From: SAR116 cluster bacterium MED-G04
GTDB taxonomy: Bacteria; Pseudomonadota; Alphaproteobacteria; Puniceispirillales; UBA1172
NCBI GenBank assembly: GCA_002457135.1
Contig: NTKX01000007.1
Location: forward strand, 1-40,777
Reading direction: 5' to 3'
Length of the DNA: 40,777 nt
The position numbers were made by a program, and so were the translations under genes. Under the pieces are notes generated by a model, which was not told the DNA's origin, made no database searches, and worked only from the letters and a program-made list of their open reading frames with translations. Positions 28,372 through 29,974 of the stretch are shown in pieces. Within the stretch, counting starts at the first letter, position 1, and the number at the start of each line of letters is the position of its first letter.

Positions 28372-29243
28372 TGGCCAGCCGTCAGGACAGCACCCCCGAT
28401 CGTAATTCCCCCGATAGTAATTCCCCTGATCAGCCCGGGCTTTCCATCCCTGTTTACGTCATCTGTTTCCCTGATCCTGATCAGCGCGAGGCGATCACAG
28501 AACGCTACGCTGCCTTCGGGATTACCCCGCTTTTTATGGATGCTGTCAGCGGTGCCGCCATGTCGGATCAGGAACGGCAGGCGTTCACCCGATCGGGGCG
28601 TGAATACCGCTATGATGGCCCGATCCGTGACGGGGCGATGGGGTGTTCGCTGTCGCATCAGGCGATCTGGCGGGAGATGCTGGATGATGATATCCCGGCG
28701 GCGGTGGTGCTGGAAGATGATGCCCGCCCGATCAGTGGCACTGATCCCTCACCGGCTACAGGGTTGCACCGGGGCCTGATCCCCAGACTGAATGATCTTG
28801 CCGCCATGGCAGGCAAGCTGGACGTGGTTTTCCTGAGCGAGCGGTTCAACCGTCCCATGGTCAGGGTGGATGGCACCACCCCGCCAGCCCCGGGCCTGGC
28901 CCAGCCGCGTTTCAGTGACATGGGGGCTGAGAGTTATTTCATCACGCAGAAGGCGGCGGCCTATCTGTTGTCACGACCTGACCGTTTTGGTGTTGAAATC
29001 GATCTCTATCTGCATCACTGGTGGCGGCATGATCGCCACTATCATCCGCTGCATCACACACCGCCCCTGTTTGAGGAGGATGGCAGGCCAACCCAGATCG
29101 GCTATGACGATACCCCGCGTTATGCGGGGAGCGGGCTGCATCACCGGGCGGCAAGGCGTTTCCACCGCATCAGGGATTCGCTCATGAAGCGGGTCATGTT
29201 CAACGGGTATATCCGGAGGGCGAAACAGCGTCTTCAGGAATAG
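28371..29243 (+). CDS. glycosyltransferase family 25 (LPS biosynthesis type)
   Basis: This 290-residue cytoplasmic protein has GT25 signatures: IPVYVICFPDPDQREAITER (about 24-43), which equals the family's Y-V-I-N-L-xx-R start, then DGAMGCSLSHQAIW followed by AVVLEDDA containing the metal-binding acidic motif. C-terminally, a SYFITQKAAAYLL region is also family-typical. GT25 enzymes add galactose or similar sugars to lipooligosaccharide. Residues 10-22 hold an extra five-residue repeat (DRNSP, DSNSP, DQP) from a 15-bp tandem duplication. It starts inside the stop of the EamA gene, an unusual partner, and ends overlapping the convergent CBS gene by 10 bases. Confidence 0.82.
   Translation: MASRQDSTPDRNSPDSNSPDQPGLSIPVYVICFPDPDQREAITERYAAFGITPLFMDAVSGAAMSDQERQAFTRSGREYRYDGPIRDGAMGCSLSHQAIWREMLDDDIPAAVVLEDDARPISGTDPSPATGLHRGLIPRLNDLAAMAGKLDVVFLSERFNRPMVRVDGTTPPAPGLAQPRFSDMGAESYFITQKAAAYLLSRPDRFGVEIDLYLHHWWRHDRHYHPLHHTPPLFEEDGRPTQIGYDDTPRYAGSGLHHRAARRFHRIRDSLMKRVMFNGYIRRAKQRLQE
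28394..28438. repeat. 15-bp tandem repeat near the GT25 gene start
   Basis: Units ccccgatcgtaattc (28394-28408) and ccccgatagtaattc (28409-28423) differ at one base; a third, diverged unit follows (28424-28438). They encode DRNSP-DSNSP-DQP in the N-terminal tail before the catalytic domain. The reading frame is kept. Confidence 0.8.
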
Positions 29244-29668
29244 ATGAATTCCTTCAGGTGACGGGCCTCAATTTCGTATTTTTCCAGCAGTCTTTTGACG
29301 ACATCACCGATGGAAACGATCCCGATGATCCGCTCACCATCCAGGATGGGGATATGGCGGATGCGGTTTTCGGTCATGGCCTGCATCAACTCCGATGATG
29401 TTGCCTCAACGCCGGTGGTGATGACCTCACTTGTCATGATGCTGCTGGCGACATCATCCAGCAGGTCATCCCGGCCCGGCAAGGCCCGGACAATATCCCG
29501 TTCGGACAGAATCCCCGCCAGTCGGCCCTCACCATCGGTGATGACCACGGCCCCGATGCGGTGTTCTTTCAGCAAGTCGATGATCGAGCCGATCGTCGCT
29601 GTCGGGAGGGCGGAAACAAAGTTGCGCTGCAAAAGGGATTGAATGAACGGGGATGGTGCTGGTGTCAT
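29234..29668 (-). CDS. tandem CBS-domain protein
   Basis: This 144-residue protein consists almost only of two CBS motifs (about residues 15-65 and 75-130), a Bateman module. Visible CBS hallmarks are IGAVVITDGEGRLAGILSERDIVRAL and IRHIPILDGERIIGIVSIGDVVKRLLE. Bateman modules bind adenine nucleotides such as AMP, ATP or SAM and usually regulate partner proteins. The ATG at 29668 has AAAGG about eight bases upstream; a TTG or GTG further up would run into the leader structure. The gene ends overlapping GT25 by 10 bases. The leader upstream (29692-29833) contains competing stems described separately. The partner protein is not evident. Confidence 0.87.
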   Translation of the reverse strand: MTPAPSPFIQSLLQRNFVSALPTATIGSIIDLLKEHRIGAVVITDGEGRLAGILSERDIVRALPGRDDLLDDVASSIMTSEVITTGVEATSSELMQAMTENRIRHIPILDGERIIGIVSIGDVVKRLLEKYEIEARHLKEFIYS

Positions 29669-29691
29669 GGTCAGCCTTTCTTTTCCTGGAG

Positions 29692-29833
29692 GCACCCCTC
29701 TTTAGCGACCCCCTGCCTGAACCCGTCATGACGCGGCAGGGTGATCCCATAAAACCAGGGGTGCATCCGGATAGAACGCTGCTAGCCAGCCTCCTATCCG
29801 GAGCTGTTGCTTGGTGTCATCGCTGGCACCCCT
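29692..29833 (-). ncRNA. candidate structured leader with mutually exclusive stems before the CBS gene
   Basis: On the minus strand the 5' leader of the CBS gene holds AGGGGTGC (29833-29826), its complement GCACCCCT (29764-29757) and a second AGGGGTGC (29699-29692), so the middle element can pair with either outer one but not both. The first pairing encloses a perfect 9-bp stem (TCCGGATAG 29766-29774 with CTATCCGGA 29804-29812). The second encloses a 7-bp stem (CCCTGCC 29711-29717 with GGCAGGG 29735-29741). The last copy ends 24 bases before the ATG. After the middle element comes GGTTTTATG. On the plus strand the structure would end in TTTTT, so a plus-strand terminator or small RNA is an alternative reading. 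Confidence 0.4.
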
Positions 29834-29906
29834 TTTTGCTCAACATTGCTGGTATAGTGTGGTGCCGCATGGACCCCATTATCGTGCGACAACTTGCCGC
29901 GCCTGT

Positions 29907-29954
29907 CAATACATCCATGGTTCAATACATCCATGGTTCAATACGCCCTTGGTT
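29907..29954. repeat. three 16-bp tandem units just after the PQQ-type dehydrogenase gene
   Basis: Units at 29907-29922 and 29923-29938 are identical (caatacatccatggtt); the third (29939-29954, caatacgcccttggtt) differs at three bases, and a partial fourth follows. They lie 20 bases downstream of the minus-strand stop of the dehydrogenase gene. The CCATGG inside each unit is a small palindrome. Confidence 0.9.
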
Positions 29955-29974
29955 CAATACCCATCATGGCGGGA

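Follow-up and report, generated by a model that had tools for sequence, protein, structure and literature searches.

The window analysed here, a stretch of 40,777 nucleotides from SAR116 cluster bacterium MED-G04, sits in a 1.56-Mb genome bin; SAR116 is placed within the Puniceispirillales by NCBI. On its minus strand the window encodes a protein that is a stand-alone pair of CBS repeats, and such stand-alone pairs often bind adenine nucleotides. The ATG of the gene, at 29669, lies 22 nt downstream of the last of a series of repeated and pairing segments that occupy its leader (Table 1). The CBS gene has orthologues in 26 other Puniceispirillales genomes. The gene is absent from all 11 of the other genomes of the window's family that were examined; either a gain on the branch leading to the window or losses elsewhere in the family may account for this.

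Table 1. Coordinates of the CBS gene and of observed or predicted leader features, in window positions. G035, G114 and G027 are related genomes described in the text.
Feature	Position	Strand	Basis or remark
CBS-domain gene, 144 aa, two CBS repeats	29234-29669	-	Pfam CBS, 91 bits, two stretches
E4, AGGGGTGC, partner of E3; E3:E4 encloses the 7-bp stem	29692-29699	-	not conserved in relatives
E3, middle octamer, GCACCCCT; pairs with E2 or E4	29757-29764	-	duplex compared with shuffles
Stable hairpin with 9-bp stem, TCCGGATAG/CTATCCGGA	29766-29802	-	-26.9 kcal/mol; other hairpins at that position in relatives
Possible 8-codon upstream ORF (MTPSNSSG, then stop), start in P1, stop in 9-bp stem	29794-29820	-	short ORFs also in G035, G114 and G027
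Conserved hairpin domain (P1 outer helix, bulged A, P2, internal loop, weak P3)	29812-29878	-	pattern, covariance model, fold, covariation
P1 inner 3' strand, GCG; pairs with UGC at 29867-29869	29821-29823	-	compensatory changes in relatives
E2, AAGGGGTGCC segment, P2 3' arm; contains third octamer (29826-29833)	29825-29834	-	GGUGCY pairs with E1
Loop segment ACACUAUAC	29852-29860	-	identical in 5/5 full members
E1, GGCACC, P2 5' arm	29861-29866	-	RGCACC in 5/5 full members
Predicted promoter: TTGACA (29904-29909), 17-nt spacer, CACGAT (29881-29886)	29881-29909	-	inferred from sequence

An initial annotation had described, within 29669-29840, three copies of an octamer in alternating orientation, the middle one able to pair with either of the others and each pairing enclosing a perfect stem. 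The three copies lie where it had put them, at 29692 (+), 29757 (-) and 29826 (+), and are the only copies of the octamer in the whole window. Both stems are likewise present, one of 7 bp (29711-29717 with 29735-29741) and one of 9 bp (29766-29774 with 29794-29802), and E3 does have two possible partners, E2 and E4. The copy number of 3, against 2.2 expected in shuffles, is not significant by itself. Alternating triples (X, reverse complement of X, X) spanning at most 180 nt number 2 in the window against a mean of 0.5 per shuffled window, and at least one occurs in 13 of 30 shuffled windows; because shuffled windows commonly reach such a triple, the octamer layout by itself is weak evidence. 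In fold energy the leader stretch beats 200 of 200 dinucleotide shuffles on both strands (z -3.2). On single-sequence evidence the finding of octamers and stems is marginal.

Comparison of the leaders of CBS orthologues showed that the leader in G035 has a promoter-like sequence and a motif in common with the window. A search pattern drawn from that motif, CACCACACTATA-N(10-38)-GGGTG, matched 5 of the 136 Puniceispirillales genomes, one in each of five genera, and the reversed pattern, used as a control, matched none of the 136. The element directly precedes an intact CBS gene in the window (G000), G035 and G135, which are non-sisters in the tree. In G114 (L069/L076) the leader is intact, and the CBS gene behind it is truncated after the first CBS repeat. 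In G027 the element leads a DUF3291 gene, and the CBS orthologue of that genome, located elsewhere, has no element. A covariance model added four copies in genus g6 (G097-G100, L085-L088), where they occupy the locus that holds the element in G027. Next to these copies is a reverse-strand HAD-type gene; they look like decaying relics, since no convincing same-strand gene lies behind them and P1 is absent from the fold in two of the four, and for this reason they were excluded from the main covariation counts. The distribution within the order is patchy, the element being absent from about 24 of its 28 CBS genes, as judged from leaders read or from the model search.

With the exact pattern, no convincing copy was found outside Puniceispirillales in the whole GTDB 220 collection: the matches were L075 (G135), L076 (G114), L079 (G035) and two unrelated ones, in a Bacteroidia record and an unrelated alphaproteobacterium, both rejected for want of element-like context. 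The covariance model gave only weak hits (21-23 bits) in 385 genomes sampled across the class, and the two that were inspected did not contain the motif. IMG/VR yielded no element, and a search of the organism's own genome no second DNA-similar copy. At the gathering score Rfam 15 had no family for the window, and the related element loci gave only a tRNA; under permissive thresholds the only matches were those of the window region to a microRNA model (14 bits) and of L082 (the G135 leader) to bglG (29.9 bits). In the open-access literature we found no paper on riboswitches of SAR116 CBS genes or DUF3291 genes, and a paper on marine structured RNAs mentions neither SAR116 nor CBS (PMC2704228).

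The conserved part of the leader is a single hairpin domain, most of which lies outside the interval of the initial annotation. Its P2 helix joins GGCACC (29866-29861) to GGUGCC (29830-29825) in the window, with the consensus RGCACC/GGUGCY, and E1 pairs with E2 with a probability of about 0.99 in the predicted fold. The third octamer is thus the 3' arm of a conserved hairpin, as the P2 pairing and its covariation indicate; its partner in the main helix is not the middle octamer, as had been proposed, but E1, a fourth segment that the initial annotation had not listed and that lies beyond its interval. A bulged A at 29824 separates P2 from P1. Inside P2 is an asymmetric and near-invariant internal loop, ACACUAUAC...AARRG, in which the invariant ACACUAUAC stands opposite an A/G-rich side, followed by the weak P3. 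The P2-to-P2 length varies among members from 37 to 42 nt. By eye, the loop sequence CACUAU could form a candidate pseudoknot with a downstream AUAG(UG), with 6 pairs in G114, 6 including a wobble in G035 and 4 elsewhere.

Covariation was assessed on five full members only. P1 differs in sequence in every genome, yet is paired in the fold of all five. Across 120 permutations of the five 5' and five 3' P1 flanks, the native combination has the best total energy (mean -9.2 versus -5.2 kcal/mol), and against shuffled flanks the five pairs together give a combined z of -3.8. In the linker-free alignment 95.6% of cells pair and 4 of 9 pairs show two-sided changes; one shuffle in 500 attained the covariation score, and none of the slid versions did. 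The sole variation in P2 is compensated, the outermost pair changing from G-C to A-U on both sides. The loop ACACUAUAC is invariant even though the window's CBS protein shares just 46% identity with its counterparts in G035 and G135. An invariant loop beside covarying helices is what a site that binds a small molecule or a protein would be expected to show. When the g6 copies are added, 294 of 20000 permutations (~1.5%) reach the observed energy, and the pair count is no longer unusual (3856 of 20000). These comparisons bear out the general idea of a structured regulatory RNA in the minus-strand CBS leader, and they relocate it: the conserved hairpin covaries in related genomes, whereas they lack any equivalent of E4, the octamer at 29692. 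A conserved aptamer-like structure, of the kind that marks a riboswitch, is present in the 5' leader.

Fold energies favour neither strand clearly; the assignment to the minus strand comes from the promoter-like sequence and the gene, not from energy. A TTGACW-N17 promoter-like sequence precedes the element in five genera of Puniceispirillales; in G035, G135, G027 and the g6 copies TTGACA/T-N17-CAnnnT lies 40-46 nt upstream of the element, and the match in G114 is weaker. A consensus scan did not call the predicted TTGACA promoter. From its position, transcription would be expected to start near 29873-29876. At 29906-29960 a 16-nt unit (GTATTGAACCATGGAT on the minus strand) is repeated about three times in tandem, and the array ends at the TTGACA -35 box, which therefore looks derived from the repeat unit. 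The promoter spacer contains an imperfect palindrome at 29886-29900 (GCGGCAAGTTGTCGC, minus strand), with a perfect form, GCGACATTATGTCGC, in G035 and GCGACATTCTGGC in G135 and the CBS promoter of G027; it is possibly an operator.

Downstream of the conserved domain each CBS leader contains a strong hairpin, and this hairpin differs from genome to genome. In G135 it is an 18-bp hairpin that runs into a T7 tract and has sequence in common with E3, in G035 an 11-bp hairpin followed by TTTCCTTT, and in G114 a hairpin with a 12-bp outer stem. The U-rich tract after the hairpin in two of these relatives suggests that it is probably an intrinsic terminator there. The window equivalent is the 9-bp-stem hairpin together with E3:E4, without a U-tract; E3:E4 lies just upstream of the ribosome-binding site, which E4 does not cover. 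Segments complementary to E2 are found in the window (GCACCCC), G035 (UAGCACUC) and G135 (UUAGCACUC), with a weaker GCACUC in G114. Compared with shuffles, the E2:E3 duplex reached p values of 0.022 in G000, 0.043 in G035 and 0.016 in G135 and fell short of significance in G114 (p 0.25) and in G027 (p 0.59); E3:E4 in the window gave p 0.011. In the complete leaders E1:E2 is the ground state in all four CBS leaders, favoured by 7 kcal/mol in the window and by 10-13 kcal/mol in the others, so that any switch would need to happen during transcription or be driven. E2:E3 is the lowest-energy fold only in some partial transcripts, those of 155 nt for the window and of 104 nt for G135. This energy pattern would suit an attenuator in which the stable domain permits the terminator, and is not proof of switching.

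On balance, and with confidence somewhat better than even, we read the minus-strand CBS leader as carrying a conserved RNA domain that acts in cis, is restricted to Puniceispirillales and exerts attenuator-type control. The element probably controls the CBS gene, and might be an orphan riboswitch. In the mechanism that we propose, transcription would start from the promoter about 43 nt upstream of P2, and the first part of the leader would fold into P1, the bulged A, P2, the conserved asymmetric internal loop and P3. E2 (GGGUGCY), the 3' arm of P2, is also complementary to the downstream E3, which is part or partner of the next hairpin. As long as E2 is held in the conserved domain, the next hairpin would be free to form and expression would be low; were the domain disrupted or left unstabilised, E2 would take E3 and block that hairpin. 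The output would be hairpin plus U-rich tract, a probable intrinsic terminator, in two relatives; in the window E3:E4, which has no U-tract and lies just upstream of the ribosome-binding site, would be the equivalent. Most likely, then, formation or stabilisation of the conserved domain would make the leader lower CBS expression.

This layout resembles that of transcription-attenuating riboswitches, which also have a conserved 5' hairpin with invariant loop residues directly after the promoter, and a non-conserved terminator-like hairpin, a strand of which can compete with the conserved domain. The element differs from them in having very few members, no Rfam match and, in the window, an output hairpin without a U-tract. 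The bglG/LicT antiterminator leader (RF03530) is alike in its antiterminator/terminator layout, but the G135 leader, at 29.9 bits, is far below the gathering score of 80 and the window has no match; the G135 match probably reflects the terminator only.

The conserved hairpin might instead be a site for a protein, perhaps the CBS protein or a broadly acting regulator that binds RNA, and the leader would then serve autoregulation rather than small-molecule sensing; we regard this as unlikely, though a serious contender. A bulged-A hairpin with an asymmetric internal loop is a common form of protein-binding leader RNA, and the element is a small hairpin with just these features, limited to one order and mostly to one gene. 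Ribosomal protein leaders, for example, are alike in the short hairpin, bulged A, conserved internal loop and narrow taxonomic range, but the gene here encodes a CBS-domain protein, not a ribosomal protein. Strict autoregulation sits poorly with G027, where the element precedes a DUF3291 gene and the CBS orthologue is without one, which favours a signal common to both genes.

It is improbable that the conserved sequence acts as DNA, that is, as a long inverted repeat in a promoter or operator. Its placement 40-46 nt downstream of the -35 box and the similarity of CACTATAC to a -10 element would fit such a site, but the P2-to-P2 length is not constant, P1 changes in sequence while its pairing is kept, and a better-placed promoter lies upstream. 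Less probable again is a leader-peptide attenuator, in which translation of a small ORF just after E2 would select the hairpin. In its favour, G000, G035, G114 and G027 each have an AUG after E2 that opens a short ORF, and E2 itself contains a GAGG-type ribosome-binding site; however, the peptides (MTPSNSSG, MIALGSDKH, MALYGGGTR, MSKSKRKRPVE) have no common sequence or repeated codon, G135 has no AUG at that site, and it is the loop and helices that are conserved, not the ORF. No conserved short ORF with regulatory codons was found, the peptides being wholly different between genomes, and the possible upstream ORF is probably not the point.

The initial annotation had also suggested a terminator on the plus strand, where AGGGGTGC...GCACCCCTTTTT could form a stem followed by T5 within 29757-29837. 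The plus strand does carry GCACCCCTTTTT, and 29813-29830 (+) is one of two terminator-like consensus sites nearby, but the T-run is the conserved A-rich loop read on the opposite strand, the plus-strand fold prefers other pairings, and no plus-strand unit ends at the hairpin: the nearest plus-strand gene stops at 29243, and the entire CBS gene lies in between. We consider this reading highly improbable. Least probable of all is that the octamers arose by chance in a GC-rich leader: the triple alone is near chance, but comparative conservation and covariation contradict such an origin for E1/E2, while for E4 it is possible.

Within the preferred reading, that of attenuator-type control by a conserved RNA domain, a more specific version, which we consider doubtful, is that the element represents a new orphan riboswitch class confined to SAR116 that senses an adenine-nucleotide-type ligand bound also by its CBS protein; if so, an RNA sensor and a protein sensor would have one signal in common. 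For marine bacteria that are abundant and little studied, the leader is a specific candidate, open to testing, for a new family of cis-regulatory RNAs, and it is linked to an adenine-nucleotide-sensing fold. Should a ligand bind, it would constitute a new riboswitch class and a pointer to the role of small stand-alone CBS proteins.
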